Source: Epinephelus fuscoguttatus (lineage: Eukaryota > Chordata > Actinopteri > Perciformes > Serranidae). Taken from it: 64,000 bases of DNA. The translations under genes and the position numbers were made by a program. The DNA lies in the NCBI RefSeq assembly GCF_011397635.1, contig NC_064769.1:19175207-19239206 (forward strand), read 5' to 3'. The notes under the pieces were generated by a model. The model did no database searches. It had not been told where the DNA came from and saw nothing but the letters and a program-made list of their open reading frames with translations. Positions 20,658 through 45,564 of this stretch are shown in pieces (the first letter of the stretch is position 1; each line of letters opens with the position of its first letter).

Positions 20658-22677
20658 ATGGCTGATAAATCTGCACAGGAGTTGAAGACTCTTCACGCTC
20701 TGGCCTCTGGAGAGGATCAAGGTGAGTGTCAAAAAAGAGGGATGAACAGTAACTCTGACATGGTAACTAAAATAACTCAGTCAGATTCCTCTCATCCTGA
20801 TAAAATATATGAGATTTAGAGAAATGGCTTCCAACATGTCAGGTTTGTGAAACATTTAAGGGGCAGTGTATGATTGCACCTCACCCAGTTTGCATGGGTC
20901 CATCAATTGTGGGCAGTTTTTGTGATTTTCTTTAGGATCAAGAAATTAAATTTCAAACACCTAGAAAGGTAAACTTTCAAATATATCAGAAGGGAACATA
21001 CAGTAGATAAAGATTTAGGGCACAAGCACACATTGGCAAAATTAACACCAGCAAATATTCACTGTCTGTTCACTTCAATTCAGTTTGAGTCAAAGGGGGA
21101 AAAAACCCATTTGCTTCCGGTGGCAAAACAAATTTGAATCTTCAGATCGCATGGAGTTGCAGCCTCAACCAATATCAAAGATGTACATGTGGAAGAGACA
21201 TTTATTGATTGCCATGTCTAACCAGCCAATAGGCTATTATATGATACTGGTCGTGACAAATACAAGCAGTCCCACATGAGAGATGCTGCCTGGTTGGCAG
21301 TGAGTCAGGAGACAGGCATGTAACATAAGAAGACGTAAAATGTTTCAATAACATCGTATTTCACTGTGTGTATTAGCAAGCTAGCTTTTAGGGCCATTAC
21401 AGGCACTGCCCACATTCAGTATATGGCCTCGGCAGATGATGGTAACTTGCGTGCAGTCGTATATGTGAGCATGTGAGAGAAAATGCACAATTCTAATATG
21501 TTGTGACACATTGGGAAAGGGGTGGGGGGGGTTGAGAACCAACAATTTAGTGCCTGTGAGTTCATACAAAGGCCATTTGACACAACACCACTAAATGCCA
21601 TCAACTATTTGGTGTTTCACTTTGTTTTTTCTTTGATTTTAGATAATGACTCCAGACACAACATTGTGGAAGAAGTCAAAGAGCGGTCAACCAAAAGGAA
21701 GGCCAGCACCCATGAAGGGCCCTCCAGGAAGAAAGTCAAGACTGACGATAGTACCCACACCCCGCACTTTGAAGGTGCAAGTGTGAGGGGGAGTAAGCGG
21801 AAGGCTCAGGAGGCTGATGAAGAGCGCCCCAACAAAAAGATCAGGGGTAGCGATCACGTCAGCATCACTGAGCCCAGCAGTGTGGTGTTTGAGGGTGTCA
21901 AAGTGAGGCAGAGTGAAAGAAAGGCCCACGATGACGGAGACAGAGCCTCAAACAAGAGCTCTGACCTCAGCCCAAGGATCAGCGCATGTTCATCCTCATT
22001 GTCAGATGAGGAGGAAACATACGACTTGTCCTTCACAGTCAAAACCAACCGAGGTAAGCTGATAGTGTGAAAGAAAGTTTGGTTGCACCTGATTCATGGT
22101 ACAAAATTTTGAAGAATATGCTCATTTGCTTTGTTGCCAGGAGTTAGATGAAGAGAGTAAAACCACTCATGTTTGTACCCAAAATATGAAACTACAGCCA
22201 GAAGTCTGATAGCTTAGCTTAGCACAAAGACTGAAAATGGCAAGTCTAGCTCTGTCTGCAATAAACAAAATCCACCTATCAGCATCTCTAAAGCTCACAT
22301 TTTAAAAAGTTATATCTTGTTTGTTTAGTCCATCCAAAATCTGAAGGGTAAAATTGGCACATGCCCCTGTTTGCAGTCTTTGTACGAAAGCTTACTGCTG
22401 GTGGTATCTTCATTTTTAGCATAAAGACAACAGCTGAACTTAATTTTCAAATCTGAATCTTGGCAAGAAAGCAGATGAGCATATTTCCACTCAATAGGCA
22501 TCCCTCTAAAGTTACAGTAATACAAATACACATCATCTCTCTGTGTCTGTGTGCAGCTGAATTTGAAGGCGACTACTACGAGCTTTCCCAGCTTGGTGAA
22601 GGTGGATTTGGAGCTGTTTATGAGGGCTACAGAAAAAATGACATGGCACCAGTAAGTCTTACACATTATCCTTCTCT

Positions 22678-22717
<40 letters not shown>

Positions 22718-23932
22718 AAAACAATTGTTTTTTAAGTGTATTCTTGGAAAGTGCCAAACACTTGTGTTTCCGTCTTTCAGGTGGCCATCAAACACATAAG
22801 GAAAGAAAAGGTCCTTTACAAGGAAGTGGTAAGTGATTCAGTCTGGTGTCCTAAGCACTATCATCTGAAACATGTTTGTACTTCTAGGGCTATTGGTCAG
22901 ACCACGCAAAATGATAGAATGATAAATGTTGAGATGTTATTTTCATTTCTATGTTTTCTGTATTTGCTTTAGGTCCAGAACGGAGAGGTGTTTCAAGTCA
23001 TTGAAGAAGTCGCCCTCATGGTGAAAGCAGCAGGTGGAGCTGATTCACCTGGGAAAACTGCAGCCATCTCCCTTCTTGACTGTTTTGATCTGGAGGAGGA
23101 GCTAATCCTGGTTTTGGAAAGACCAGTCCCCTCCATGGATCTCCACAAGTACTGCAGGGCCAAGGGAGGCTACCTGCAAGAAAACGAGGCTAAGGTACTG
23201 AAGCTAGGTGAAGGATGAAGAGTTAGGCTGCAGTCTCTTTATTATTTATTATTGCCATAATTTACACTGTGTAGTGATCACTCATTAATACGTCTGTCTT
23301 GTTTGTTTAATCCGTATCGACGCTGAGGTGTAAAAACACACTATGGTGTTCAGGGTGTATACACTGGGCTATTTCTTACCCCACTAAGCTAACAAATTTT
23401 GTTGACGTGAACGTTTAACTTAAACTCCACTCCATTCACTCGTCTGTTTCACTCTCTCCCTCCATCACAGATCATCCTGAAGCAGATGATACATGCAGCC
23501 ATTGAGATGCACTCGAACAGCGTCTTTCACAGGGACATCAAGCTGCAAAACGTCCTTGTGGAAACTGGACGCACTGTCCCACGCGTTCGAGTGATTGATT
23601 TTGGTTGCGGCTGCCTCGTGAGAAAGCGATACTACAATTACTACTGTGGTATGATATCTGGCCTCTCCTGATATTTTATTTCTACGTCTTGCCTTATGGT
23701 TGATTGTCTCTGACTGTGTCCCTCTGTCTTTGTGTCTTACATTGTGTATTTTAGGTACCTTCTCAAAAGCACCTCCAGAGTGGTTTCTGGTGCGAGAATA
23801 TCAGGCCATTCCCACAACAGTGTGGCAGCTTGGAGCACTGTTGTGGGACCTGCTCGACCGTAAACATTCATTTAAAACTCAGGTTTACTTCCAGGAGGGG
23901 CTTAAAATCAACATCAATCTTTCCAGAGGTAA

Positions 23933-23986
<54 letters not shown>

Positions 23987-24739
23987 GTTTGCAAGGATCA
24001 CTTAATTGAAATTACAGAAGATGATATTTCATACTACAATACACTACATGTTTTTATACCTTCATGCCAGCGAAAGCCGTTGCTGGAGGCATTATGTTTT
24101 TGGGTTGTCTGTTCATACATCCGTACGTCCGTACATCCATCCCATTCTTGTGAACTCGATATGTCAGGAACGCTCTCAAGGAATTTCTTTACATTTGGCA
24201 GAAACGTCTCTCTGAAGATTTTGTTGGTCATTGGTCAAAGGTCAAGGTCAATGTGACCTCATCTGTCTTGTTCTTGTCAACACATTATGGTCAGAAAACT
24301 TTGAGGGACTTTTCTTTTTTCAAATTTGGCAAAAATGTCCACTTGGACACAAGGATGAACTGAGTAGATTTTTGTGGTCAAAGGGAAAGGTCAAAGTCAC
24401 TTTGACTTTGCAGCTGCCTCATTCTTGTGAACTCGATATCTCAACAACACCTTGAGGAAATTTTTTCAAATTTGACATAAACATCCACTTAGATTTAACA
24501 ATGAACTGATTAGAATTTGGTGACATGAAATAAGTCAACATACACAAATCTTTGGGAGGATTTTTTGTTTTACAGTGGATCACCTCGCTGCCACTGAAAC
24601 CACTGATCTCCCTAACTCCCTCTCTCTCTCTCTCTCTTGCTCCCCAGGCTGCAGAGGTTTCTTGCAGATATGTCTGCAAAATGACCCTGAGATGCGTCCC
24701 ACATTAGAGCAGCTACAGCTTCATCCGTGGCTCAGATAA
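20658..24739 (+). CDS. PIM-like serine/threonine-protein kinase, eight exons, complete
   Basis: A cytoplasmic or nuclear PIM-family Ser/Thr kinase. Exons: 20658-20721, 21643-22053, 22557-22651, 22781-22828, 22973-23194, 23471-23648, 23755-23928, 24648-24739; all GT-AG, phase continuous, 427 codons. The start ATG has a good context (accatcATGG). Exon 2 encodes a Lys/Arg-rich low-complexity region with repeated KRKA-type motifs. The kinase domain starts near residue 165: glycine loop LGEGGFGAVYEG, lysine in VAIK (K194), HRDIKLQN (catalytic D302), DFG 323-325, PPEW in place of APE, C-terminal HPWLR. PIM membership is shown by the proline-containing hinge LERPVPSMDL and by VWQLGALLWDLL, which lacks the usual helix-F Asp as PIM kinases do. 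Such genes are expanded in teleosts, so a specific pim1/pim2 orthology is not claimed. The last four exons are duplicated immediately downstream. Confidence 0.9.
22142..22335 (+). repeat. Dispersed teleost repeat in kinase intron 2
   Basis: Begins 'gagttagatgaagagagtaa' and continues with 'gatagcttagcttagcacaa', 'caagtctagctctgtctgca' and 'ctctaaagctcacattttaa'. This is the same order of phrases as a widespread fish repeat and as the copy at about 50.5-50.8 kb here. The family name is not assigned. Confidence 0.6.
22681..22714. repeat. (TC)n microsatellite
   Basis: An uninterrupted TC run of 17 units in kinase intron 3, acting as part of an extended pyrimidine tract before exon 4. Confidence 0.95.
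23934..23985. repeat. (CA)n microsatellite, unit 1
   Basis: A CA run immediately after the exon 7 donor of the kinase; the orthologous run in unit 2 (about 26,054-26,086) is shorter and ends in a CATA variant. Confidence 0.95.
24060..24540 (+). repeat. Internally repetitive dispersed element in kinase intron 7
   Basis: Contains repeated phrases such as 'cattcttgtgaactcgatat', 'caaatttggcaaaaatgtcc', 'acttggacacaaggatgaac' and 'ggtcaaaggtcaaggtca', spaced by roughly 100-140 bp. This is a widespread fish minisatellite-like element. A shortened version is present in unit 2 at about 26,115-26,450. Confidence 0.75.
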
Positions 24740-24964
24740 TCAACGACGAGCCACGTGTTGTCAGCTCTGTCCCTCTCATGCATGGTTAGATCACACTCCT
24801 ATTGTTATTCTTTTTTTTTTTTTTAAATTTATATCTATTTTTCATATTTATTCTGCACTTTAAAAACCAGATGCCTCCTAGTCAAGGTCTCTGCTGGAAC
24901 TGTCCTAACATTCTACGTGTGCTTTTATTTATCTGTATATGCATTCTTTGTGATTTTCTGACTC

Positions 24965-26053
24965 TGATTCAGTCTGGTGTCCTAAGCACTATCATCTGAA
25001 ACATGTTTGTACTTCAAGTGCTGTTGATCAGACCACGCAAAATGATAGAATGATAAATGTTGGTATATTTTCATTTCTATGTTTTCTGTATTTGCTTTAG
25101 GTCCAGAACGGAGAGGTGTTTCAAGTCATTGAAGAAGTCGCCCTCATGGTGAAAGCAGCAGGTGGAGCTGATTCACCTGGGAAAGCTGCAGCCATCTCCC
25201 TTCTTGACTGTTTTGATCTGGAGGAGGAGCTAATCCTGGTTTTGGAAAGACCAGTCCCCTCCATGGATCTCCACAAGTACCGCAGGGCCAAGGGAGGCTA
25301 CCTGCAAGAAAACGAGGCTAAGGTACTGAAGCTAGGTGAAGGGTTAGGCTGCAGTCCCTTTATTATTTATTATTGCCATAATTTACACTGTGTAGTGATC
25401 ACTCATTAATACGTCTGTCTTGTTTGTTTAATCCGTATCGACGCTGAGGTGTAAAAACACACTATGGTGTTCAGGGTGTATACACTGGGCTATTTCTTAG
25501 CCCAGTAAGCTAACAAATTTTGCTGACGTGAACGTTTAACTTAAACCCCACTCCATTCACTCGTCTGTTTCACTCTCTCCCTCCATCACAGATCATCCTG
25601 AAGCAGATGATACATGCAGCCATTGAGATGCACTCGAACAGCGACTTTCACAGGGACATCAAGCTGCAAAACGTCCTTGTGGAAACTGGACGCACTGTCC
25701 CACGCGTCCGGGTGATCGATTTTGGTTGTGGCTGCCTCGTGAAAAAGCGATACTACAATTACTACTGTGGTATGATATCTGGCCTCTCCTGATATTTTAT
25801 TTCTACGTCTTGCCCTATGGTTGATTGTCTCTGACTGTGTCCCTCTGTCTTTGTGTCTTACATTGTGTATTTTAGGTACCTTCTCAAAGTCACCTCCAGA
25901 GTGGTTTCTGGTGCGAGAATATCAGGCCATTCCCACAACAGTGTGGCAGCTTGGAGCACTGTTGTGGGACCTGCTCGACCGTAAACATTCATTTAAAACT
26001 CAGGTTTACTTCCAGGAGGGGCTTAAAATCAACAAGAATCTGTCCAGAGGTAA

Positions 26054-26089
<36 letters not shown>

Positions 26090-26778
26090 AAGTTTGTAAG
26101 GATCACTTAATTGTGTCCACTTGGACACAAGGATGAACTGAGTAGATTTTGGTGGTCAAAGGGAAAGGTCAAGGTCACTTTGACTTTGCAGCTGCCTCAT
26201 TCTTGTGAACTCGATATCTCAAGAACACTGTGAGGGAATTTTTTTTAAATTTGACATAAACGTCCACTTGGATTTAACAATGAAATGATTAGAATTTGGT
26301 GGTCAAAGGTCAAGGTCACTGTGCATCAACACCTTGCGTCAGTCTCATTCTTTTAAACGCAATGTCTTGAGAAGACCCTGAAGGAATTTCCTCAAATTTG
26401 AGTTACTTGGCCTCAAGATTGAACTGATTAGAATTTGGTGACATGAAATAAGTCAACATGCAGAAAATCTTTGGGAGGAGTTTTTGTTTTACAGTGGATC
26501 ACCTCCCTGCCACTGAAACCACTGATCTCCCTAACTCCCTCTCTCTCTCTCTCTCTCTTGCTCCCCAGGCTGCAGAGGTTTCTTGCAGATATGTCTGCAA
26601 AACGACCCTGAGATGCGTCCCACATTAGAGCAGCTACAGCTTCATCCCTGGCTCAGATAATCAACGACGAGCCACCTGTTGTCAGCTCTGCCCCTCTCAT
26701 GCATGGTTGGCCTCCTAGTCAAGGGCTCTGCTGGAACTGTCCTAACATTCTACGTGTGCTTTTATTTATCTGTATATG
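24965..26778 (+). repeat. Tandem segmental duplication, unit 2
   Basis: Second copy of the 22834-24941 unit, about 1.8 kb. Left and right ends match unit 1 (tgattcagtctggtgtccta ... atctgtatatg). It lacks part of the intron 7 repeat and the T-rich segment that follows the stop codon in unit 1. Confidence 0.9.
25101..26660 (+). pseudogene. Duplicated C-lobe exons 5-8 of the PIM-like kinase (no N-lobe exons)
   Basis: Exons 25101-25322, 25592-25769, 25876-26049 and 26569-26660 match exons 5-8 of the upstream gene in length (222, 178, 174, 92), phase, splice sites and stop codon. They encode about 222 aa with only about six substitutions visible by eye, for example K-to-A-side change GKTAA to GKAAA, HKYC to HKYR, NSVF to NSDF, LVRK to LVKK, SKAPP to SKSPP and ININ to INKN. 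HRDIKLQN and DFG are intact. The start codon, glycine loop and VAIK lysine (exons 1-4) have no second copy, so as a separate gene it would be an inactive partial kinase. It could instead be an alternative 3' exon cassette of the upstream gene, because its first acceptor has the same phase 0 as exon 5. It is typed as pseudogene for lack of an own start, though no disabling mutation is seen. Confidence 0.8.
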
Positions 26779-26984
26779 TATATACAGTATATGCACGTAG
26801 GGCTTCTTCTCAGGAGAGAAGTTCGTAACGCAGCTACGCCTGGATGGTGTGTCGTGGGTATGCTGCTGCCGTGGCCCTGCCTAATGCCTACTGCTACTGA
26901 TGTTGTCAGCTATTGTCACTACTGTCTGACCTGTTTCTTTCTCAGTCTCTGACTCTCGTTATGTTTAAATTTGTCATATGGATT

Positions 26985-27165: not shown

Positions 27166-27216
27166 GATTTAGAATATTAATGTATGTATTAATATATGTG
27201 ATAAAATTCAAAAAAA

Positions 27217-27300
27217 TTTAATGCGTATATATGTGTGATGTGTATATATATACATGTGTGTATATATATATATATATATATTAAACATTTTATCTTTATA
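27217..27300. repeat. AT/GT-rich simple repeat
   Basis: A cluster of TATATA, TGTGTG and ATATAT runs, low complexity and likely polymorphic. Confidence 0.8.
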
Positions 27301-27945: not shown

Positions 27946-28368
27946 TTAAAAACTGGACCTTTATAGAGTATCACTTTGTTTCAGTTTTAAAAGCAGGTGT
28001 GAGTGTGTTTGGATCATATATAAAGATAATAAAGATCTACTGTATATAGATTGTTTATATGTCTATGATTTTAATGAACACAAGACTGGTAAACAGCATG
28101 TGATCTGTCTCATGTAGGAGAAGTTTATGGTTTGACCACAAAATCCTTTGTGTAAGGCAATAAAATAATGGGATGAAACGGCTTTGTAATGCTTAGATCC
28201 ACACATTTAATAGTTGGAACTGTCAAATCTGTACAAAAATAAATTACAAATGTAGAAAACTTTATGCACAAATGGCTAAACCTAAATTCCAAGAGGACAT
28301 CATTGCAGATGTCAGTGCAACAGATATTGTTTTACAAACTAAATATAAAGTGATTACATCACATCTAA

Positions 28369-28374: not shown

Positions 28375-28607
28375 GTAGGCCTACTTTACCAATAAAAAAA
28401 TCTGTCCTTAAATATTTAATGCCATCACTGACCATATCAAATTCATTAAACATGTCTAGATTCTAAGCACTAAAAATGCTTCAGTATATTATAATTACAC
28501 TATATTTATAGGCACATAAAATATAAGAAGTGTTTTTCCCCAGTAATAAAACATCCACTTAAGTGACAACGTGGCACTGTTCCTTTCCTTTCCTTGAGAG
28601 ACTCAGC

Positions 28608-31600
28608 TCAGTCGTCCTCTGCAGCCACCATCCTCTCGACAGCCGCCCAGTCTATTTTACTGAGGTTGCTGCTGGTGGTGTCGGAAAGATTGTCCAGCCA
28701 GTCCATCGCTGACACACCAGCTGTGGCACCATCATCTTGCTCGTCCAGCAGTCCAGCCAAAACCTGACAAGTGTACAACAGTGTATGAAACTAGACATGA
28801 AACCAAATAATGTAGTTACAGTTCTCCCAGATGTAGGCTAGTATGTGATGAATGTGAGTCTTACTATGTTCGACTCTGACTCCTCTGGGCCCAGCAGCCT
28901 ATTCAATTCCGAGGTGGGCTCCCAAAGGTTCCCCTCTTCCCTCTCTTCCATCCTTGTCTGGTCCCTCAGGATCCCTCTCCCTGCAGCAGTCCCCGGTGCA
29001 AGACCTCTGTTCGGCCCTGTCTTTCTCTGGTGTCCAACACGCCTTTCCTCACTCTGGCTGGCTGTTTGCTGTTTAGTGTGGCTCTTTGTGTGTGTGAGCA
29101 TGCCACGTCTGGTAAGCTGAGACAGTCGGTCCCTTGGCAGAGATGTAACTAACACAAAATTCACACAACATAAACAAGTTAAGTGAATTTAACATGGTTT
29201 GGACAGTTGAGTAAAACACATCTACAGGCTCATCTCGGTGAGCAATGTAGTAAAATATAATTAATGATACCTGGTCTATGTAGTCCCAGTCTCCTGCGGT
29301 AATCCTCTGAAAGCAGTCCCTGTGTCTCAGCAGTCCATGGACGAAGGTGAGGTTGAGCTTGTCCTGACTTAAGACTTCTTTTATCATTAGCAGATACACT
29401 GTAAGCCCAATGAAAAGATATTACCTCCATCACCAAATCAGCCAATTCCAGATGTTTAGAATGAACACCCTGTACAAAATCTGATTAATGCCTTGTTCAG
29501 ACGCTAGATCAGAGTGCAGTTATTATCTAACGAGAAAGATCCTGGTCATATAACTGTTGCAGGGGATACCTGTGAGTGCTACCAGAGGGTGGAGCAGAGT
29601 TGGGTCGTGTAGTTAAGCGTGCAGGTGAAACTTCAGTCTTTGAAGAAATGAGCAGGGTTGGAGGGTTGGTGGGAAACTCACTGGCCAAAGAACAGGCCTC
29701 ACGGGTCCTCTGGTTGTATTGCTCCAGCAGCATGAACCTATTACATCAAATGGAAATAACAGTAATGCACATGCATGTTTATTGTGCACAGGTAATGTAA
29801 CAGTTACGTACTTTTCTTTTTCCTCCCTGGTTCTCCAAATGGTTGCTCGATTCTTGGTTGCTGGTTTCTGTGGAGGCACACAGAGGTAACGTCAACAACA
29901 ATGTGGATAGAATATTTCAATAAGAGCATACAGTGGATTATCAGTTCTAATAAAGAGGCAAACACATCTCACCACCTTTCCAGAGGTAGAAAAAGGTTTG
30001 TGTTCCCTCTCCCTCAGGCTCTCTCTGTGTTTCTGATAAACAGCCAGTCTTTCCCTCTGTTTCCTTCTCATCCAGATCCTCAGCTCTCTCCTCTCCTCCT
30101 CTGGAGGGGCACGTTTCTGCGACATCCAGCTACTCTGCTGCTGCTCCAGCCTGCTATGGGTCACATTACTCTCCAGCTCAGTCATAAATCATAGCTGTTT
30201 CAGTAGTCATTTGGACCGAATTTCAGTAGGTACCATACCTGCTATGTGGTGCAGTCTGTGAATTGGACAAATCCAGGTCAGTCGGGGATAAATAGCCTTC
30301 CCTCACCAACTCGTCTAGGATTTCGGCTGTATCGGATAACCCAGTCTGACCCAGATTCTCATCTGCACATCTAGAGATGGACAGGTAGAGGGAAGAGTAT
30401 TGGGAAGTAGGAGAAGTTACAGTGAGGTTTGCACATCTACAACAGATAATGGGCATCATAACACTTCTGATGTACTTAAACCTACTCAGGAGATATTCCA
30501 GATGCTTCAATCAGCTGATCTTTCATTTCTGTGGGAGCAACACAAACAGATGAAATAATTACTTTTAAAATTATGACTACTGAGAAAATATCCATGTATC
30601 TGACTATAAAAGAATAAAGTATGCATCTGCATTTCTATTTTAATATTTATTCATCAACTAGGAAGTGCAGTTTGCCAAGATACGTGGAAATTGTTTACGG
30701 AAGTAGAAATGTTTAGGAAGCGTTTAAGTAAATTGCATCCTTACTCCGAGGGGTGTGAAGGTAGGAAGGAACAGCATGGTGACCAGGCCTCCTTTCGTGA
30801 GCCCAGGAGTCATTATGAACCTCATATTCTTCTTCCTGATTTTTTTCCTCCTCCTCCTCCTCCTCCTCCTCCTCAGCCTCCTCACAGGTATCCAGGTGAG
30901 CTGAAGGGTTCAGTTGTGGTAACCATGCTGTTAGAGACAGAGAATATGCATGAATGTCTTATAGAGTTTTTTCAAACAATATTCAAGTTATTTATTATTC
31001 AATTAAACCTGCAACTTTGTTTTTTGTATCTAAATTTCGAGGATTTGCTTTGTAATTTAAAATGCAACATGAAGAGTTTAGGCTTTTATTACAGAAGAAC
31101 AGTTTTACATCATACCTTCCTGTGGAACAGACAGTCTGACAGTTTTTTTCCTCACATCAGGAGCCAAGACTGGTGTCAGCTTTTCAATAGTGTTCACCAG
31201 CTACATAAAGAATAAATTGCATTTTAATGTCAACTCTCAAAGACAATTTCTATTTTTGGGTGTCACTACTAATAAAAATCAGGAAAAATAATGAGAAGCA
31301 ACATGCTTATATACCATCCTCGAGTTGGTAAAGTCCATTTCCAGATAGTCTGCAATGTTCTGTAGAGCAGCCAGCTGAGCGTCCAGCTCTGAAAGGCGGG
31401 AGGAGAACCAAACTGTAGGCGGTGTGTATGAGGCACTGTGAGGTTGAGTGCTCTGGGTCTTTATGGCTTGACAGATTTCAGAGTCAGGTTCATCTACCAC
31501 ATCTTGTGTAGTGATTCTCTCTGGATCCCTGTTTGGCTCAGTGTAGCTGGGTGATGGTAGCTCCTCTGGGACACCTAGAGTGTACAGTACAACAGATATT

Positions 31601-34600
31601 TAGACCTCACTGTATTCAGTACAAAGTAATACCTGCATTAGACAATATAAAGACCTGTGTGCGGTCTCCAGTGGAAGTCCTCTGGAACTGGTTGTGGATC
31701 AGCAGCAGCAGAAGCACTCCTTATAACTGAAGTCGCAAGTACATGAAGCTGAGCAGAGGTAGGTGAAGGAGGGCGAAGGGGAGGTACATCTTGTACTTCT
31801 GGGCTGAGACAGCGAGGCAAGTCCTGATGCAGGGCTTTGTCTTCTAGATCCAAAACACTTATGAACTGGCGGCCACCAGGACCCTGAGACAAAGACAGAG
31901 AAACAGAGAAAAGTGAAGTAAAATGTCCATCAATCAAAGTTAAATCCTGCTCAAATTCATGAATTGGAACATTAGGTATGGAAACTAGGTAACTACATGA
32001 CAACAGTGCTCAAGAGGCAATGCTTTTAACTGTCATCGACTCAAGACAAGCACGTCATCAGTTAAAGCCACACCATGAAGTGGGTAGCCCTGTTGTATGG
32101 TGATGCAAATCCCTGCTGTGCTCGGCTGATGCGCCAAGCCAAACTGAGGCATGGAAAAGTGCTACTTGTATGTCTGGCCTCTTACCAGATTCTGCCCCGG
32201 CCCCTGTGGCATCTCCTCTTTGTCTTGAACAAGGCGCTCTTTGAAAAACTGCAGATTCCCTGAGCTTTGTGCTGGGTGGAGAAAGCACACACATACACAA
32301 ACACACAATGTTTAACTCTTCATTATATGCCCAACAAATAAAAAAAGCAGTGTGTTATCCTTGTTCCTGAGATATCAAATCCACTTACATTTAGGGCTAC
32401 TAGCAGGTACGGAGGCAGACACAGCTTTATCCACGAGTGCGGGAGGACAAGCTAAAAGAAAAATAATCAACATGTTACTGGCTCAGAATCTAGAATATGG
32501 AAAACATGTATCTGAAACAACCCAGGCAAAACAGAGAAATTCAACTACAACTGTGTAATAATATTACAGCAGTCCAAAACTATTACAGTATCAACATGAC
32601 ATAACTTGTAATGCAAACTATCTCACCTGGGTCTGTGTTAGTGAAAGCATCATGGCACTCTGGGGGTCTTTTATGTGTGGAAGCAAAGGCATGGAGCTCA
32701 GCTGACGTGGACATGGCCCTGTCCAATAATCTCTGACCAGTCAGCAGAGAATCAAAGGACCCTGGGAGGCAGAGATAAGAGGGAAAAAAACAATAGATCA
32801 ATAGAATTACAATATTTCAAAGTGTCTGGTCATGACCTTAATTATACTGTATACTGACACCAACCAAATTGAGCAAAATTGGGAACATCCTGCTCAGGGG
32901 TGATCTCCTCTGCAGCTGCAGGTTCCTTGTTTACAAGCTCATTTGTTGGCTGGAGATATATTGGAACAAACAAATGAAAAGTGAAATTACACTTAAGGAG
33001 GAGTAGCAGCACAAAACACTTCTTATTAAAAGTAATACTGCTCTACCTCTTGTGTAGGGATGATAGACTCATCTGGTCTGAATGTGACCTCTGCTTTTCT
33101 TCCCCTCTCTGCCTTCTCCTCTCTCCTCTTCCGTCTATAAACAACACAGTGTATTGTGAGTAAAATTATCAGCTTAAAAAAAGAAAGTCAATAGCATGAA
33201 AACATAAATGTGATTGCCTCTTGCTGGAGTTTAAGGTGGGGGGAGTGGTAGCTCTTCTAGTGCTTTCGATAGGTGGGTCCACTCTGAGCAGCCGCAGTCG
33301 AGCCTCTTCAGCATTCTGCCTCCCCATCACTGAACTTGTCAACTCCTCCATAGACATGAGACGGGCCATTTGGCTTGAAGGAGCTGCCTCGGGTAACATC
33401 TGTGGCAGAGACAGATATATCTGTTTGTAAACTACAATGCAAGATTTTATGATACATCACTTTACAGTCTTGAAATAACGGAAGTGCTGCTTGCCATTTG
33501 TGGTCCAGGTTCTATATGCAGAAGCTTGATCATAGGTGCTTCTCCCCTCGGAGCTGCAATGACAGAAGAGGGCCTGAAGGAAGGTGCTATGGGAAGTTTG
33601 GGGAACGTGGTGTTGCTTTGTGGAGCAGGCTCGAAGCGCAGCAGACGAAGGCCCTCCATTGGTGCAGGTGTATCAGCAGGAGGAAGTAGGGTGAAGCTTT
33701 GCCCCCTGGATCTGTCCGACATCTGACTCTTGGGTTGAGAGTTCATCGGAGTTGTATTAAAACTGAGTTGTCTTTTTGGCACTGAGACAGTTTGGTTGTG
33801 TTTTAGCTTATACTGATGGGATTCCACAGTTGCAGGGTTTGTCGTTTGAAGCACCTGGGGGCCTTGGGGATGGTGTGGCACACTCTGCTGGGGCAATGGA
33901 GGACGGCGGAGCTGAAGTAACTTCAAGCCGAAGACCTGGGGAGCAGAGTCCCTTTGTATGCTGTCATTAGAGGGCAGTAATACGGGGGCACTGTGAATAG
34001 CGTGGCTGGTGTCAGTAGTGGCCAGAAGCCCCTGTGAAGGTGGGATCAACCTCCTGCTCTCCATAAACTGGATTTCTGGTGACACCGCCTGGACAGAAAG
34101 TGGCTGCATTTCCTGAAGAAGAAATAAAAGTTGTATTCAGCTTAGTTATTGTTTACATAGAGGCAAAATGTGACACAGCTTGACAGAAAACTTGAGCAAC
34201 ATGTGATAACTTACACCTGCACTATTAGCAGTGGACGTGGTGTGATGCTGGACACCTGTTGGGGAGGTTTTCCCTGAGCTCTGGATGGCGGTGTGGTCTG
34301 TAAACATACACGCAGGGGCCTGATGGGGCTGAAGGTTGTTGGATCTTGAACTTGGCACGAATGCTTGTGTCTGAGATGGCACTGGCATGTTGGCATTTGG
34401 TTGAGGGATGAAATTAGTCACGTAAGATGATGGCACGTGAGGTTGTGAGGTGCCGATGTTAGACTGAGCCATGGAAGAGCTCTGCTGGGCAAGTTGAAGG
34501 TTAGAAAATGAAGCTCCCAAAACCTCCATTAGGCTCATGTAGTTGATATTCTGCAATGAAACAAAAACACTTCAGATCAAACTCAATCTTGAAAGCCACC

Positions 34601-35645
34601 TGACTCCAGACATTTTTGTGGTTAGTCTCTTCTTACCTGAACCAATCTGAATAAGTCTTCACCCAGACGCTGTTGCACTAGTGGAGTCTGAGCAGATAAT
34701 GGCTGATTAGGGGCTGTGGAATCTGCAGGGGGGGCACCAGATGTGGAGCTTTGTGGCTGAGTGCTTGGAGGATCCACAGGTGTGTCGGGGAGCAGCACTC
34801 CAGTGGAACCAGAAGGCTCTACATGGACCTGTGCCTCAGGCTGTACAGTAGGAGGAGCTTGGGGCTCTGAGTGCAGGGGGGCTTGTAGGCTTTTAGAATC
34901 ACTGTGGCTGAAACAACAAAACAAACAACAATGCCAATAAAGATTTTGTTTGTTTTGGCCTGAGGCTTGTAGAAATAACTCAGCAGGGATTGTACTTCAT
35001 TATATTTTTATAATGTCATAGTGTAATGTGGAAGAATATAAGTAAACAACAACTATTATTAACATTACATAACACAATAAGGCTAAAAATCTCAAAGAAT
35101 TCTGCCATCATTTTGGCACTAATTTACGACACTAATGGAGAAAAGATGCAAAGTTCTTAAGTTTACATTAAAAACTCACAGAGAGCTGGAACTGGACACA
35201 TCTTCAGCACTTTCTGAGAGGTCCAGGTCTGCGAGCTTTAAACTCTGCAAAGAGCAAAAACAAGTTATTTGTGTTTTGACAAAGCTGACGATATGTATAA
35301 GAATGGGAATCCTGGAAGGTAATATTCACCGTTTCAGGTGTGCAGATGTTTCCAGAGATGTTCTCATTGGAAACAGAGGACAACACTTCCAAGCCATCAC
35401 TCTCACTACTTTTGCCTACAAATATCAAACACGTTAATTCACATTCTCTGCATTACAGCAACATTGAGGATCCAATTTAACTTAGTAATATACCTTCTTT
35501 TTCAGGTGTAACATCCAAGTCATCGAGAGATGGTTGTTGTGAACTGGACTGTCTCTGCTGAGCATCAAAGGTCAGCTGATCCTGGTCGTTAGGGAGAGGT
35601 GTCCTGTGAAATGTCAGTTCCTCTGGTTCATCTGTAGAAGAACCA
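28608..35645 (-). CDS. cplane1: CPLANE1 exons 26-48 (disordered C-terminal region)
   Basis: Exons: 35645-35494, 35415-35330, 35244-35180, 34907-34637, 34550-34215, 34112-33495, 33399-33218, 33134-33047, 32949-32865, 32761-32627, 32451-32389, 32259-32186, 31883-31655, 31574-31315, 31200-31116, 30528-30486, 30370-30239, 30168-29973, 29867-29812, 29737-29570, 29398-29271, 29148-28865, 28763-28608. The first half is Ser/Pro/Gln-rich and probably disordered. Exons 31-32 carry a repeated LLxxEP-like motif. Conserved islands are LSELDAQLAALQNIADYLEM (exon 39), ILDELVREGYLSPTDLDL (42) and the Arg-rich helix ELRIWMRRKQRERLAVYQKH (43). Exon 31 may use a GC donor at 33494 or a weak GT at 33479; exon 32 seems to use a GC donor. 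The exon 43 acceptor is uncertain (30168 or 30153). Confidence 0.87.
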
Positions 35646-38600
35646 CTGCAGGGAAACACAGTAAAAAATGTTTTGCTGCTACGTTTTTGTTATATCGCCA
35701 TCAGTTGGTTGATATATCTGAGCTAGATTTAGCCCAATATTAAACCACCATAAATAGGGCACTCACATGGACAGTTCTTGTTGTAGATTCTGATCAAGAC
35801 CAATGATGGGAGTGTTGGCTGATCCAGGGTAGCCTGTATCGACACTGCTCTCTCTCTCCAGCTTCCTATCCACCTCAGGGCGCAGCATGGGAGCTACAGT
35901 CCACTGTGTTTCTGGAACTTGGATGTGAGCACTGTAGCGGTTTGTCCCGAGGAGAGCAGTGTACTTGCGCTCCAGCAAGCTGAGGGAAGTGAGGACAGCA
36001 GGCGCAGAGGCTTTGACACGGATCACCACTCCTTCATCAGCTGTGCCTCCAACTCCTCCTCCCTTCTCTTTCTTCTTTTTGCCATGATGTCCTAGCAGCA
36101 CCCTCCTATCAGCCCAGCGGACCATCCACTCCAGCAGCCTGCCAAGTTTTGGAAACTGAGCCTCTAGTTTAGGGTCTAGGCCCTGCTGAAGTTCAATCAC
36201 AGCTTCAACAGAAGTTGAGGAGCCAAGTTTCAAGCTCTCTGATTGCCGCCCTGTGGTAATGGCACTTCGAATAGCACTAGTATCAGATCCATAGTGTCCC
36301 CCCTTCAGTTTTTGGCCTGAATGCACACTGCTTTGCTGTTGGAGCCCAAACAAACCTTTACGCCTGCCTGTGCTTAGCCCAGGAAGAGAACTGACAGAGA
36401 GGCTTGCTCTGGATATGGGTGCTTCACTCCAGACAGAGGAAGTCTGCATATCAGTTGCTGCACCTTGTTTGACAGGCTTGTAGCAGTAGCCGGCTCTGAA
36501 CACTGGAAGATCATTGCCCACGTGTTTTCTGGCTGGATGGTGCGCATCTCTTTGGCGGCGATGAATGGTTGTGAGCACATCAAAGGTGAGAGAATGCAAC
36601 TCTCTCTCCCTCAGCTGGGAGGAGAAGCCCCTCAACAGAGGAAGTTCATTACCTGAATCCCCTCCATCCACACTGTCCTTCTCTAGCACATAGCTGAGGA
36701 AGAGCTCCAGGAAATTTAGATACTCGTCATCTTCCAGCTCAAACTCCCAGGTGCCAACCACTGGTAAGGAGGGCTGCTCATTCTCCTTGGCGTCGTCTGG
36801 GTGACTCTCCTCCTTGATGACGCTTTCAATCTTAACAGCAGTCTTCTTTGCATGCTCTCTGTCTCTTGATGTTTTAGCTTTTTTGCCCCTGCTAAAAAAA
36901 ACAACACAGAGCACAGAATAAGGCACAACACAGATATATGAAACCTCAATGTAATGGTATTGCAACTATTCCACGCTGGCTACCTTGTTGTGGCTCTGCT
37001 GTGCATTTCAGGAGAGACGGCCTCAGATGTATTATCCACTGTGTCTCCATCGCTGTAAACTGGGGGGAACCCAAAGTCAGTTAAGGTGCTGGTGCTCAGA
37101 CTTGTACCCAGTGAGAATTGCTTCCACACAGCCATCCCATGTTTGCTTCCCCTGTCTTCCTGTTCCTCCTCCTTCTCCCACAAATGGAGCTCAGGGGGCG
37201 CCAGATGCCTCGTCAAACGCCCAAGATGTTTTCTCCTCTGCCTGAATTTGTCTTGAATGACGATCATCATCAACTCGTTCACCTCCTCTTTTTCGCCCTC
37301 TAGAAGCAAATGGAATAACATAGATTGACATTTATAACATATGTTTAAGGAGTCGTGGACAATAAGTAAAATCAGCCTACATCCCTCACTTAAAGGAATA
37401 CATCGAGTGTTGAGGATGGGTGCTACGCTTCGGTGACAACACTGTTCCACCACCATGAGTCGGGAAAGCATTATAAGCACTAACCGCTGTACAAGCTTAG
37501 TGCAGAGCGATGCCAATAAGCTAGCCAGTGGGATACACACACAGGGACTCACATGCATGCGAGGACTGTCCGTCTACTACCACAAAGAACAGAGAGCTGC
37601 AGAATACAACAGACAGCAGTAGCGTGATTTCAATCTCTGCTCCGGAGGCCATAACTCTAGTGGTTTGCTGCTATATTGATGCTCTGAATGTCGCACACAG
37701 CTTCTTCAAAATAAAGAAATCAGTCTCTAAAAAGTGACATTTTTACAGTAGAAGTGCTGTATAGTGCTTCAAAGCAATTATTTTAAAACGGAAGTGTTCG
37801 TACCAAGGACATTGCATCGCTTCAGCCTCTGCAGCAGTGAGTTATACTTTTCTCTCAGAGCGACTCTTACAGACTCTTCCTCCTCTGGGAAGGCACGTAC
37901 CAACACATCTGCCACCTACAAAGAGGGACAAGCAAGGATGAGAATTTTATTCACTCAAGGTCATTCTATTTCACTTCAATAAGCACTGTTTATGTAAGAA
38001 AAGGGCATGGAAAAGTCACCAGAGAGAGGGGAGGAAGTTCAGACACAAGGCTGAGCAGTATGTCCTGGAGGATCTCCTCAGCGTTGAGAAAGCAAGAGAA
38101 AGGCAGGAAGCGACAGGCCCAGCGGAGAGCATCAACACAGGTAGCTCTCACTTCTGAACCACCAGGGATCTACAGGATACAAATACACACAGATATTTAC
38201 AGGACCTAATGGGCATATTTATACATAAACATGTCATCAAACACAAATGGAATACCTGCTCATCTCCACCATGCTGTCTGGCTGCCTGATACTTCCTGCA
38301 GGAAATGGAGAGCTGGTCCCTGACATGAAGCATCCAGCATAAACCACACAGCTCCCTGAAACAGACTTGTAGGAAAAATATAGTCAATAAGCACTATTTG
38401 AAAGTACATCATTGATTATGATGCCCAAAATTCACTATGAGTGGCGTCTTACTTATAGTTTGAATGGTGTCAGGGTCCAGGTGACCGTCTTTGTTAGGCC
38501 CCCGTCTGAAGAATCCACGGCAGGTGACGAACTTCATCAGGCCCTCTGGGAAAGCCTTTTCTTCTTCAGTGGCTGATGGATAGGAGTACTTCTTCTTGAT

Positions 38601-41600
38601 CTGAAAACATCATCAGATATTTGCACTACTTATTTCTTTTTTGCATGATAAACCAATAAAAGTATGGTAAAATGAAAAAACAGCATTTCTTTAGAAAAAC
38701 TGGACTGTCGCCATCAAACTGTAAGCCATACTTGAGGACCTTCAGTTCTCTTATTAAACCAAATCAAAACCCCATAGTCTTTGAAAGTACCTTGTATAAT
38801 ACGTGTCTGGCACGGCGCAGATTACTGATGTACCACTGAGCAGCAGGATGGCAACAACGTGCAGATCTCAGAAGTAACAGTAATCTCTGAAGAACTCCAG
38901 ACACTTTGTGACGTGATGCAACCTCTGCAAATTGCCCCGTTGTCCCTACTGGGTCCTGAACATGAGACACACATATTTAATTTTATAATTCACATGTTCA
39001 TACTGTTTGTAAAAGCTGATCTTCTGTTACGTACCTGTGTGTTGGGGGAAGGCTGAGGGCAATAAAGAGGTGGCGAGGGCAGATACAGTCCATTGGGCAC
39101 CAAGGCAGGCAGACAAGAACACAGGTCTTTGGCTGTATCCAGCAAGGAAGACAAGGGTGATGACGTAACGTTCACTCCAGCCATGACTGAAGCCTTCAGA
39201 ATCTCCTGTATGGAAACCTGTAACAAATCCCAGTCTTCTCCTTCCAAAGGGTCTGGTAAAAGAAGTGGAGACAAAGCACAGATTCCAATTAAACGGTGCT
39301 ACGTGCATTGTGGTCCTCTTACCATTGTCAGATCTCACCAACCTGTAAAGCTCTTGTCACCATCTTCATCTCTGTGCTCTTGGGAGTCAGACTTACTGCC
39401 AAGAAGACACTCCAACTCAGCCTGAAAAATGCTGTCTGGTTCTAAAGCTGTTGGGAGGTGGAGCTCTCTCCTCCTGAGCCTGTCATAAAAGATGTCATTG
39501 AGATGTGCGTGAAAACAAATATGGTAAAAGTTTGAAATTGAATTTATTCTAGTGAATATACTGTATGCTTTCAAACTGACTGAGTGAAGTCGAAGTGGTC
39601 GGCGCAGTAATTCGTATACGCCAAGCTCAGAGAGGCTGCTGTCTTCCAGTCCCCAAGATGGTAAGCCAACCACACAGTCTCAGGAAGCAGACCCCCAAGC
39701 AGGAGCAGGTCCTGGGCGTAGTCTACTGTCCATACTTCTGACAGCTGCTGCTGACGCACTGCCCTAGCCACCTCCTCCTGACACAGTGGCACCAAGCGCC
39801 CAACACTGGAGGCTGAAAAAGACCGTATTACCTAATAGCAATAAAACTTAAAAAATATATATTTTTATCTAGCAAAAATTATAGAAACACACCATGAGGT
39901 AGATGTAGTGGAGGCAAGACGGTAACATGGTGAGGGGGCAGGATGTAGAGGGGTTGGTTGGTGAAGTAAGAGGCCATGAATCTCCCCAGGGTCTGAACCA
40001 CAGCACAAGCTGTGTCACTGTGAAGGTCCATTGGCAGCCACGGGCAGGGAGGAGAGTCTGCTGCAGTGCAGGGCATAAAAGCAGAGCTTATAACTAACTA
40101 CAGAGACTGAGAATGAGGTCATTTGTGATGAAGCACAGTGTGCTGCAGTAACTGTGTCAAACTACTGATCATCATGGAGCAAGATCTAAGTTTCTAGCAG
40201 CTGGATTATTTCATTCTTCTCAGAGTGATAAGTGCCAAAATGACGGACAACTCCCCCATTTACTACATTCATAATCCAGAGAGATGTTGGAAATAGATTA
40301 ACCAGATAAAGCAAAAGAGAGGACATGTCTCTTTGTCCCCATAACAAAAACATATTTTTGGCCACACAGCCTTTAAAGGGAGACATTCAAAGCTAACTCA
40401 CCGCTACAAGACTGAGTAATTATGGACCATTGCTGACCTGTCATGTTGTCTTTCTGGTGTCCGGCCCTGTGCAGGATGAGACGGGCCATGTGGTCCCCTA
40501 ACTCCTGAGCTTCTCTCAGACGGTACTGGGATAACAGACTGTATAGGAGTGCCAGACAAAGACGTGTCTCCTTGAAAACGGCACGATCAGAGCCTAATGG
40601 AAAGATTTATGATTACTATTTCAGACTGATGATGAGCATGTGGTGTACTTAAATGAAAAAATGTAAGCAGTGGTTCTTACTTTTGTTACTCTCCTCACAA
40701 ATTTGTGACTGCCATGTATCAGCACTTTTAGGGTACGAGCCAAACAGGAAAAGGTGTTCACCTGGGGGAGAGGAGGGAAATAGTAGATACATTCATGTTT
40801 AACTCTAAGTCTTTTTTTGACCTGAGCCACAGATACATTGTTTTGCATTCGGTTTGATTTGATTTAAACTCCCCAGTTTACTTCCTGCTTCTAGTACAAT
40901 TATTAAAGTTAGATAATTAGTCCTTCTGCTACAGACCTGGGTAACTCAGCAGTGCAGGACCCTCCTCTAGCCTTTCTCCTGTAGCCTGCAAAGCTGTTTG
41001 GATCTGGGACATGATGACGGACAACTGCTGCTGTTCCTCCTCCCAGCCATCACAGCCTTGAAAGCTTTTCAGTTCCTCCATATACTGCAGGGTGATCTTG
41101 TAAACCCACTGCCACACTCCAAACAATCTGGTCAAAAAGGAAAATCATCAGTCTTGTTGGACTTTGTGACAAATTTAAATTCCAGGCAAAACATGACATG
41201 CAATGACTAAGGTTGGGATCCACAGCAATAAATAGTGGACAATTAAAAACACATAAAAAGCCAGAGAGATGGTCTGTACCTGCTAGACGGTCGCTGGGGA
41301 ACAGATTGTGCCTGACGTACAAAACTGGACTTCTGTTCCTTCTCATGCTGTAACAGAGGCACACAGTGTGCATCGGAAGACCAGAGATGTGACTCCTTCT
41401 CTGCAGAGGACCAGACAGTTTTTTGCTGCAGGCTGTAGGTGTGATCAAGACAATCAGAGACCAGCTCCAAGACATGCAAGACAGACGATAGACTATGAGA
41501 AGATAACTGACAGTGACCAGTCTGGTGGGACTCAGGGTGAGGGGTCAGCAGGAGGCGAATCAGCCGTTTACTGAGCTCCACCACCAGCCCCAGGCAGCAT

Positions 41601-44600
41601 GGCCCATCTGAGTGATTGCTATCCCAGGGAAGAAAAGACAGAAGGGCTTTGAGAAGGTGCAGCAGGCAAGGAGAAACCGAGATATTTGTCTTCCCTGTGT
41701 TCTCGGAGCTGGGGATCAGATGGAGTAGAGCAGCAAGTCGCACCACACAGTAGAGGGTGTGCTGCAGCAGACGAGTTCTGTTGTCCACAGTGTTTCCGAG
41801 AGACATGCCAAACGCCCAAGCTGTTAACAGCTTAGTCTGGATTTTTCCAAGTTCACGATAAAGACGAGGTGTCTTCCTCTCTGTATCACAAAAGTCCCTA
41901 TCAAAATCTGGGCTAGTGTCGGCCCTTGTGTCCAGGGCGTGGAGTGTGTCAAACATTGAGGCAAACTCTAGACGTCCACCATCCTCCATGTGAGAACCAG
42001 CAGGAGGTCCGTCTATGTCAGAGTCATCCTCAAAGAAAGTCTAGGAAGCCACACAAACAAGCAGCGGGTTAAAGACTGGTAACATAAGTAAAGTAAGCAA
42101 CTAAGGGCCCTTTCACACCTAACTCATTTGGTCCAGACTTTAAGACTTTCAGTTTGAGTTAAACCAAAATTACAAATGTTAAAACTCGCTTGGACCACAT
42201 TCTGGACCAAAAAGCCAAAAATCTTGGTTTGACAAAAAGAGGTGATGTCATTACAGATCAGACTGAACCTTGGTGGTGAAAACATTTTTTGTATGGTTCC
42301 AACTTTCGGACCAGTAACAGGAAATTTTGGCAGGCTATCATCACAATAGGTTATCAGATGCACTATAGTAATTTGATAGTCATTGTTAGCAGTAATCTGG
42401 CATTAAAATGTCCATATAGCAGAGAAAGTTGCTTTTTTAATGAGACAATGGGCTATAAACTTTAAGACAGTGATAATATGTCAATGCTGGTAAAAAAAAA
42501 AAAAAAATGATAGGGATGGGTGAGAAACCTGATTTATAATCTGCTTTTTACCTTCATGTAAAAACGCAGCCACAGTCAGTGTATATAGTCCACTGACAAA
42601 CCTCGAAATTTAAAGCTATACCTTTCTATCTTACACTATTTGACTGACCTGTACTTTTTCAAGAAGCTCCTTGGTACCACCCAGTGTCCCCTGATCCTGC
42701 AGGAAAGGTGGCAAAGTGGATCCATCTGTAGCTGCTGAAATGACAGAGTCTGCGGTGTTGGGCCCACATGTGACAAGGGTGCTGTCAAGATTCAGGCAAG
42801 ACAAGGACTCCAACCATGCTCTCGCATGTATCTGAAAATAAGAAAATGTAATGAGAAAACTGTATCGTCAAGAATAGCTCTGCAGAGAGTACAAAAAAGG
42901 GGAAGCTAAGTAAGATCCCTGTTCTAGAAGTCCCTGAGTTACCACCTGTGATTTATCCAGTATCCGACTGGCCTTCTCAAGGTCCTTGCTTGCATCCTTT
43001 ATTAGTGTTTTCAGCAACAGGGCAGGAGAAGGCCTATCTTGCACCCTCATAACTGTGGCCATGTAGCCATCAGACACAATGAGGTACATTAGCCGTGGAT
43101 GCCAGGTCACGGAATACCGCTGCCTCAGGACATCCCGCACAGACAAGCTAGAGCTGGACAGAGAGGGATCTGCTTTCCCTGCAGACATTGGTGCCCTGTA
43201 GAGGGAAAGTATCAGGAACATAATCAGAAGTTTAATTTATAATGAAAATAATCATTAGTTACCACCCTAAATTATACAAAATAAAATAGGACATGTTTCA
43301 CACTGGATTTGTACAACTCTTGGAACAACAGACAGGTGAGATGCAATGAATTGGCTCACATAGGGAAGAGTGTAAATGAGGAAATCAATGGCAAAGATGA
43401 CTGCAGATGAGAGAGGAGGAATAAGAATTAAGAAATATCAGCACAAATAAATCAATAAATTGTAACAAGGGCTCATGAGTGAGGCAAAATGTCTCAAATG
43501 TGCACCGGTAAGTGACGAGAGGGTGCAGGGGTAGGAAGTGTGCAGGCCCAAAGTCAACACTGCAACCACAGCTTGTTAGAGTGAGGAGCCCCCCAAGGCG
43601 AGCCAACATAAGAAGGGAGCCTCTCTTCAGAACACAGGCCAGGAACAGACCACCTGGTGACCAGCTCACACTGCCCACCCAGTAGGACCTAAAAGAGAAG
43701 ATATGTAAAGTATATTGGTAAATAAATACACACTGTACATCAAAGATATGAAAGAGGTTCTAATGACATTCAGGTGAAGCAACACATCCTTTAGTGGCAA
43801 TCATTTCCTGGTGTCTTGCATCTTGGCAGTCTTGATACAATTGTGCAGACATTGTTGTCTTTGCTGGTGATGCTGATAGGTAGTCATTCCCATTTTATAT
43901 TTAGACAGTCTGGAAATGGCGTGCTTAACACAGACACACTGTTGACACTACTATGTTTGTTTAGAGTAGTGAAGAATGAGTCACAAAGCTTCACCAGCAA
44001 TATTTTAGACAGTGTGACTGAGCAGATGTTGACCCCAGGTTAAACCCTCACATTGGCTGATGACTGCATAACACCAACATGCTTTCTGTACCTTATGTAT
44101 TTAGAGGGGATGTCCATTTTCTTGCTTCCACATCCTCCAAGGCCACTTGATATTGAGACAAAATTCTGTGTGCTCACAAAGAGGACCTGTGTGGCCTGCA
44201 TTCAACAGGAAATACAAATCATGGGTCACATTTTGTAGAGATGGACAGACCTGGAAAAACTTATAAAGATGTGAAAAAAGAAACAGATAGGCCTCACCTT
44301 TGGCTGTCTCTGGTTCAGGACTATGGCTAACAGTCGGCCATCTGGGGAGAAAGCTGGCACCAAGGCCCCTCTGGACTTCACTGGTTGGCAGGGCGGGGTG
44401 AGACGAGACATGGGGTATGTCTTGGTGGCCCACTGTATGCTGTATCCCACAGAGCTACAAAGAGAAATACGTACTTTTAACCACTGTAACACCCAGTGAG
44501 AGCCCTGCCTGTTATATAGACCTGCTCACTCACCCCGCTCTCATGTGGCCTTCTTCCCATTGAATTTTCAGGCAGGTGAGGACTAGCTTCTTCCCAGATG

Positions 44601-45564
44601 TGAAAACAAAGGCTGATAAGCAGGCATCACCCATAACCTGAGCGAGTTTGTGGAAAGATAAAATAAGATATAATATAATAAGAGTCATTTACTGAAACAT
44701 ATGACAACATGTTAAATATGTATTCTATTCAGACCTCTGTCTTGATGAAGATGGTGTTTTGGGATGCTTCTTTGTCTTGTGAGGAAGGCAGAATGGAGTC
44801 TTCAAGGGGTTGTATATGTGCCCAGTGTCCCTTGACCGTGCCATCTCGTACCCCCGTCAAATCCCTGACATCCATACACTCCCACAGGAACACTTGCCCT
44901 GTTATGGCTACCACGAGCACACGCTTTCCATCCCCTGAAACTTGGAGTGACAGTCTTGTGGCATTCCCTGTGAAAACATACACACATAAATCCAAAGACT
45001 TCCCCATCTTCCAGGTAACTTTACACATGTACATATACTGCACATACCTTGAACAGCATTGGTCATCTGAGCTACTTCTGGGACCGCTGCAGCAGTCTTC
45101 AACAAGTCTTTATCCCTGTTCCACAGAAACAGCTCTCCTGAGACCAGAAGTCCACACAGCCACATACCTGGAAAAGGAAAAGTGACAACAAATGTACTCT
45201 TTGAAATGACAGCAGACTTGTGTTTTGCTTTGGGTTTGCACATTAAACTCACCATTGTGGGATGAAGCCATTGTCACCACACTGTTGAGCAAAGGATGGA
45301 GTTTAGGAGTCCTCTTCTTGGTGCGTCCAGACACCATGTTGATCTCACTGATCCGTTTGTCATCTAACAGGAACACAGACTCCTTCTCCTAAAGAGGGAC
45401 ATGACACAGGATCACAGTCGTGTTCCTCTGACAAGGGAGGCAAAGTTTCAGTGTCTCTGGCTGAAATGTTTGACAGTCCTCACCTTGCCAAGCCAACAGA
45501 ATCGCGGCCATGGTTTCTTCCGTTTGATGCTGGATGACAAAACAACCTCCAGCTTTAGCTCCAT
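28608..45564 (-). CDS. cplane1: CPLANE1 (C5orf42/JBTS17), ciliogenesis and planar polarity effector complex subunit 1, complete
   Basis: CPLANE1 is a subunit of the CPLANE complex (with INTU, FUZ and WDPCP), which acts at the base of the primary cilium in recruiting intraflagellar transport proteins. Human mutations cause Joubert syndrome 17 and OFD6. I reconstruct 48 coding exons with continuous phase, about 3,169 codons, against about 3,197 aa in human. The N-terminus (MELKLEVVLSSSIKRKKPWP ... FLLDDKRISEINMVSGRTKK) and blocks such as LFGVWQWVYKITLQYMEELK, CFRELCGLCWMLHVRDQLSI and VGTWEFELEDDEYLNFLELF are clearly family-specific. The C-terminus ends SKIDWAAVERMVAAEDD. It overlaps no other gene and is transcribed toward the kinase. 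Exon lists are in the three block entries below. Identity is very secure; uncertain points are the 3' end of exon 31, the acceptor of exon 43 and the alternative donors of exons 9 and 43. Confidence 0.96.
35767..42040 (-). CDS. cplane1: CPLANE1 exons 11-25 (central region)
   Basis: Exons: 42040-41280, 41127-40937, 40761-40681, 40593-40438, 40060-39893, 39812-39581, 39479-39343, 39252-39035, 38955-38791, 38600-38453, 38365-38256, 38169-38020, 37915-37804, 37299-36984, 36888-35767. They encode an alpha-helical, leucine-rich region followed by a charged linker. Conserved signatures include GRLEFASMFDTLHALD, LCLALLYSLLSQYRLREAQE, YILPPHHVTVLPPLH, DLLLLGGLLPETVWLAYHLG, LRRARHVLYK, AFPEEEESVRVALREKYNSL and QFSLGTSLSTSTLTDFG. 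Exon 25 (1.1 kb) carries a lysine-rich stretch (GHHGKKKKEKGGG) and has a NAGNAG acceptor (start at 36888 or 36891). No disabling change is seen. Confidence 0.93.
42103..42330. mobile_element. Non-autonomous DNA transposon (MITE) fragment in CPLANE1 intron 10
   Basis: Starts with the phrase gggccctttcacacctaact, a familiar terminus of a fish MITE family, followed by ggtccagactttaag-type text. A matching inverted terminus and target duplication were not found, so it looks truncated. Family assignment is from memory only. Confidence 0.4.
42649..45564 (-). CDS. cplane1: CPLANE1 exons 1-10 (N-terminal beta-propeller-like region)
   Basis: Exons in transcript order: 45564-45484, 45388-45253, 45167-45048, 44967-44735, 44637-44534, 44454-44298, 44195-44092, 43688-43506, 43195-42946, 42831-42649. 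This part encodes about 517 residues with WD-like strands (GLLVSGELFLWNRDKD, VVAITGQVFLWECMD, SRGALVPAFSPDGRLLAIVL, GSVSWSPGGLFLACVLKRGS, LMYLIVSDGYMATVMRVQD). These suggest a degenerate N-terminal propeller, the best conserved part against human. The exon 4 donor is a non-consensus GTCTGA, but the phase and the continuation VMGDACLSAF support it. Exon 9 has two in-frame donors 3 nt apart (ends at 42946 or 42943). Confidence 0.92.

Follow-up and report, generated by a model that had tools for sequence, protein, structure and literature searches.

Partial gene duplicates are a recognised class, some of which gain functions (reviewed by Katju, PMC3449122), and the tandem duplication of exons is common, a figure of about 10% of animal genes being cited (PMC9013439). 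In the window analysed here, a stretch of 64,000 nucleotides of the Epinephelus fuscoguttatus contig NC_064769.1, a gene predicted to encode a PIM-like kinase carries its four terminal exons, with their introns, twice in a row behind one set of upstream exons. Does this gene splice a shared start to either of two ends, or is the second end a young partial copy carried along by a gene whose kinase is made mainly from the first? Like the duplicates of Katju's review (PMC3449122), the copy covers part of a gene; unlike them, it lies behind its own parent's start and on the same strand, and may therefore share its transcript. It resembles the mutually exclusive exons of Dscam1 and Mhc in being a tandem exon copy, but the copies here include the stop codon and 3'UTR, and use of one copy at a time is a feature of those other genes (PMC9013439). 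A literature search for this duplication, which was run without the species name and covered subscription journals thinly, gave no title or opening of an abstract that names it among the papers listed.

A tandem duplication within one gene

A direct-repeat search and BLAST found two direct tandem copies 23 bp apart; comparison of the flanks fixed their ends to the base, with the shared sequence running to TATATG at 24941 and 26778:

22834..24941, + strand: unit 1, which starts at the sixth base of intron 4 and ends in the 3'UTR
24942..24964, + strand: 23-bp junction sequence
24965..26778, + strand: unit 2

Given the length and identity of the copies, chance is no concern. Part of a single gene stands here in two direct copies side by side, the form of a partial tandem gene duplicate. 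The first-pass annotation had described exons 5-8 and their introns as duplicated with 23 bp between the units, and its coordinates proved exact to the base against the repeats, BLAST and the flanks. It had also described exons 1-4 as single-copy; tblastn of the whole kinase protein against the window indeed found exons 1-4 once and exons 5-8 twice, all further matches having E >1. The likeness of the units is uneven, as BLAST showed: they differ by several hundred bp within the repetitive part of intron 7, and a block of 84 bp in the 3'UTR (about 24789-24872) is absent from unit 2.

The junction is, by eye, unlike either outer flank, so that end joining with filler fits; the segment from just within intron 4 to the 3'UTR, whose copying in place is observed, was probably joined in this way through the 23-bp filler. 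A 13-nt match of the junction to intron 1 (at 20919), weak against chance (P 0.06 for the window as a whole, 0.02 for a match within 5 kb), gives only a hint that the filler may have been templated there.

As a separate observation, intron 7 holds related repeat copies at about 24060-24520 and 26114-26440, which are 64-77% identical to a family reference, and the array differs between the units.

Gene model and kinship to PIM kinases

The exons of the gene model are as follows, with additional evidence for the single-copy exons in brackets:

20658..20721, + strand: exon 1 (start codon), single copy (open frame and GT donor; one tblastn match)
21643..22053, + strand: exon 2 (charged N-terminal region), single copy (tblastn)
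22557..22651, + strand: exon 3 (glycine loop), single copy (PIM alignment, tblastn)
22781..22828, + strand: exon 4 (VAIK lysine), single copy, donor GTAAGT (PIM alignment, tblastn)
22973..23194, + strand: exon 5
23471..23648, + strand: exon 6 (HRD, DFG)
23755..23928, + strand: exon 7
24648..24739, + strand: coding part of exon 8, stop TAA
25101..25322, + strand: exon 5'
25592..25769, + strand: exon 6' (HRD, DFG; V298D)
25876..26049, + strand: exon 7'
26569..26660, + strand: coding part of exon 8', stop TAA, peptide identical to that of exon 8

Spliced together, exons 1-8 (20658-24739) form an open frame of 427 residues, and the frame is again 427 residues when exons 5'-8' replace exons 5-8. 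The lengths of exons 5-8 (222, 178, 174 and 92 bp) are equal in both units, and the earlier claim that the duplicate exons keep their length, phase, splice sites, HRD and DFG holds for all four pairs. The description of the copied part as the C-lobe exons only was too narrow: since exon 5, aligned with PIM1 and PIM2, also includes what we take to be the alpha-C glutamate region and the hinge, more than the C-lobe was duplicated.

Both forms match the protein kinase domain PF00069 of Pfam, with 133.2 bits for the unit-1 form and 128.6 bits for the unit-2 form (cut-off 31.7). Against solved kinases, among the best 60 of 1782 matches, the unit-1 form scored 164.6 bits with PIM-2 and up to 155.2 bits with PIM-1, followed after the PIMs by PAS domain-containing kinase at 85.3 bits. 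In the unit-2 form the PIM-2 match falls to 161.0 bits, and the best PIM-1 match is nearly unchanged at 155.1. The catalytic Lys, the HRD Asp and the DFG Asp are present in both forms, which by domain, proximity to the PIMs and catalytic residues are thus predicted to be PIM-like protein kinases. When viral contigs were scanned with exon 6 in search of outside relatives, 35 stretches fitted a pattern, and none of them was confirmed.

Within the charged N-terminal region encoded by exon 2, a diverged twofold repeat of the form FEGxxVRxSxRKA was noticed at about 21760-21960.

Divergence between the two units

The first-pass annotation had put the difference between the two ends at about six residues, and had proposed that Ka/Ks of the duplicated exons and the divergence of the introns be computed. 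The coding parts differ by 15 substitutions in 666 sites, 7 of them nonsynonymous and 8 synonymous, which change exactly 6 residues (T235A, C267R, V298D, R331K, A345S and I393K). By the NG86 method dN is 0.0137 and dS 0.0556, a ratio of 0.25, and other methods gave 0.27 (LWL85), 0.32 (YN00) and 0.34 (ML), so that Ka/Ks lies between 0.25 and 0.34. In the noncoding parts, 22 of 781 aligned sites differ (2.8%), in a count that leaves aside the AC run, the part of intron 7 whose repeats have diverged, and the block of 84 bp in the 3'UTR; two of these differences (24788 and 24942) fall at alignment ends, without which the count is about 20 of 777. Such low coding and noncoding divergence indicates that the duplication is recent. 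Coding sites have not changed at a different rate from noncoding ones (Fisher P 0.62).

Under neutrality of every change, six or fewer residue changes would be expected with P 0.009, and seven or fewer nonsynonymous changes among the 15 with P 0.028. With unit 1 constrained at an omega of 0.1, 0.25 or 0.5 and unit 2 free, P for 7 nonsynonymous changes of 15 is 0.22, 0.16 or 0.09, respectively; given these values and the total of only 15 changes, neutral drift of unit 2 is not rejected. Some constraint on the pair is suggested, then, whereas for unit 2 alone constraint is not demonstrated. Clustering of the kind expected from gene conversion was sought among the 25 of the 37 differences that lie in 22834-23933, and was not significant (the densest groups held 4 differences within 15 bp, P 0.06, and 5 within 40 bp, P 0.15).

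At residue 298, which adjoins HRD, Val is found in unit 1, PIM1 and PIM2, and Asp in unit 2; an Asp is an unlikely residue beside HRD. At residue 345, on the other hand, unit 1 has Ala, and unit 2, PIM1 and PIM2 have Ser. With PIM1 and PIM2 as the sole comparison, V298 of unit 1 and S345 of unit 2 look ancestral, and T235A, C267R, R331K and I393K read as uninformative. Since V298 is kept in one unit and S345 in the other, neither unit is plainly decaying.

Two arguments for a function of unit 2 were dropped. Its lack of stop codons is no sign of constraint, as a fraction of 0.52 of the neutral simulations with 15 changes had none either; by calculation, the chance that unit 2's share of the changes is stop-free is 0.61-0.66. 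Ka/Ks was set aside as proof of unit 2 function on account of the same small numbers.

Splice sites and switch points

The last 24 nt of the introns before exons 5-8 are identical between the units in all four cases, and a comparison of the three donors over 23 nt, 3 of exon and 20 of intron, showed no difference. The copies are also equal in length and phase, as alternatively spliced duplicated exons are. It had been suggested that exon 4, ending at 22828, could be spliced to either exon 5 (starting at 22973) or exon 5' (starting at 25101), and all three positions are exact in the spliced gene model. Eleven exon joins were tested: the forward switches 4-5', 5-6', 6-7' and 7-8' all reach the normal stop with 427 residues; the joins 7-5', 6-5' and 7-6' run into early stops; and the joins 5-5', 7-7', 6-8' and 4-6' are open, but the kinases are lengthened or shortened. 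The switch points after exons 5, 6 and 7 were missed in the first-pass annotation, as was the peptide shared by exons 8 and 8'; because of that shared peptide, the five possible full-length transcripts would encode four proteins.

On a donor matrix, a possible donor after exon 8, at 24784, scored 4.81; the real donors of exons 5 and 6 scored 3.91 and 4.98, and the remaining five real donors 7.1-12.4. A transcript that contained exon 8 as well as the spliced exons 5'-8' would carry exon junctions downstream of its stop codon, which should expose it to nonsense-mediated decay.

Poly(A) signals and 3' ends

No AATAAA occurs between the first stop and unit 2, just as had been claimed, nor does any of 13 poly(A) hexamers in 24739-24964; farther on, a single GATAAA lies inside the unit-2 intron before exon 5'. 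The two-ended splicing proposal is partly supported: the reading frame and the absence of a hexamer as far as 24964 would allow it, but such absence is common by chance and counts for little, 26% of random stretches of 226 bp from the window equally lacking all 13 hexamers (and 70% the two canonical ones). None of the 13 was found in the matching 3'UTR of unit 2 (26660-26781) either. The first candidate of the ATTAAA/AATAAA type beyond unit 2 is:

27280..27285, + strand: ATTAAA, candidate poly(A) hexamer

Other candidates past unit 2 are AATATA at 27191 and GATAAA at 27200, and the first AATAAA is at 28028. Read most simply, these results would place the original 3' end past the duplicated segment and both units, today, in one transcript.

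Which explanation fits best

On balance, the locus is probably a young partial tandem duplicate inside one PIM-like kinase transcription unit, in which unit 1 makes the main kinase and unit 2 is mostly a passenger. The apparent position of the original 3' end beyond the duplicated segment suggests that both copies belong to one transcription unit. Since the splice sites of the two units are identical and those of unit 1 are nearer, unit 1 would most likely supply the main 427-aa kinase, with exon 8 or exon 8', and unit 2 would be mostly 3' sequence, serving at most for minor alternative ends, all in frame, to which a forward skip after exon 4, 5, 6 or 7 would lead. The exact tandem structure with its junction unlike either flank, the intact frames and splice sites of both units, the low divergence, the lack of hexamers in both 3'UTR stretches and the open forward switches speak for this explanation, as do the loss of Pfam and PIM-2 bits in the unit-2 form and the position of V298D next to HRD. 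Against it, the dN/dS of 0.25-0.34 and the P of 0.009 lean towards constraint on the pair, and at residue 345 it is unit 2, not unit 1, that has the Ser of PIM1 and PIM2. A partial copy too young to have decayed, the alternative already named in the first-pass annotation, is at least as likely as two-ended splicing, and the event is a neat one but of an ordinary kind unless the second end is used in RNA.

Rather unlikely, in our judgement, is a working gene with alternative endings, in which either four-exon end can be joined to the common start and N-lobe core, giving two kinases and, with the other switches, up to four proteins. The frame held at four forward switches, the identical splice sites, the lack of hexamers before unit 2 and the low dN/dS would all suit such a gene. 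In oysters (Crassostrea virginica and C. gigas), the terminal exon 10 of AOX and part of its 3'UTR are tandemly duplicated, both forms are expressed, and one of the two rises under air exposure (PMC5589949). There, as here, terminal coding sequence and part of the 3'UTR were copied, the upstream exons are shared and the ends are equal in length; the oyster case involves one exon with copies 63.5-65.9% similar, in two species, whereas four exons with introns are copied here (PMC5589949). With these differences, oyster AOX may be taken as a close precedent for the splicing alternative. However, the acceptors are identical, so that nothing seen favours the distal one; exon 4 must jump 2.3 kb and four exons to reach exon 5'; a drifting unit 2 beside a constrained unit 1 fits the 7 nonsynonymous changes of 15 (P 0.09-0.22); and an Asp is hardly to be expected at residue 298. 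It is quite improbable that the locus shows, at a natural early stage, how an alternative ending of four exons arises: one start and N-lobe core would then serve two catalytic ends, lack of a poly(A) site at the proximal end would lead to use of the distal one, and with each forward switch in frame up to four distinct kinases would come from one promoter.

An assembly artefact, in which two haplotypes of one locus were placed end to end, we regard as improbable. The locus is known here from the assembly alone, and intron 7 and the 3'UTR are rich in repeats. The window, however, contains no N; the junction, judged by eye, resembles neither flank, left of unit 1 or right of unit 2, as it should between end-to-end haplotypes; and the units differ by about 2.6%, with indels of 3, 7 and 84 bp and larger, which would be very high for alleles. 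A complete tandem copy of the gene that later lost its promoter and exons 1-4 by a deletion ending in intron 4 would fit the anatomy too, and teleost pim-like genes are multi-copy (PMC12562241), but it needs two events, the units are just 23 bp apart and exons 1-4 occur once in the window, so that we hold it to be very unlikely.

For a passenger unit 2 a further fate is conceivable. In the Japanese flounder, 14 pim genes were reported, most of which, the expanded ones above all, are male-biased; many of the expanded genes lie near or overlap piRNA clusters, and the authors proposed that the expanded members may be pseudogenes that feed such clusters (PMC12562241). The present gene is PIM-like, as these are, and may belong to the same kinase family expanded in teleosts; an internal duplication of terminal exons is not described in the available part of that report (PMC12562241). 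By analogy, unit 2 may be a source of piRNAs. If the second end is expressed, the locus would be a very young case in which a partial duplication leads to alternative sets of terminal exons, and could be followed while the copies are still alike; otherwise it offers a clean partial duplicate, seen before it has decayed, from a kinase family expanded in teleosts.

Neighbouring features of the window

Scans of the window for tRNA genes and against Rfam gave no matches. The kinase gene lies among the following features:

212-508, perhaps to 16027, - strand: WD40 gene upstream of the kinase (Pfam WD40, PDB matches)
about 28600-45400 (by eye), - strand: row of ORFs that together resemble a single large gene, convergent with the kinase gene
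56881-57647: tandem array of about 172-bp units, 4.4 copies

The first PDB match of 212-508 was an unnamed WD-40 repeat protein (E 6.5e-38) and the second WD repeat-containing protein 70 (E 1.6e-29); the gene is presumably WDR70, which we take to reach 16027, where an ORF lies that has no Pfam match. Pfam gave no match for four ORFs of the row at 28600-45400, which may be CPLANE1.
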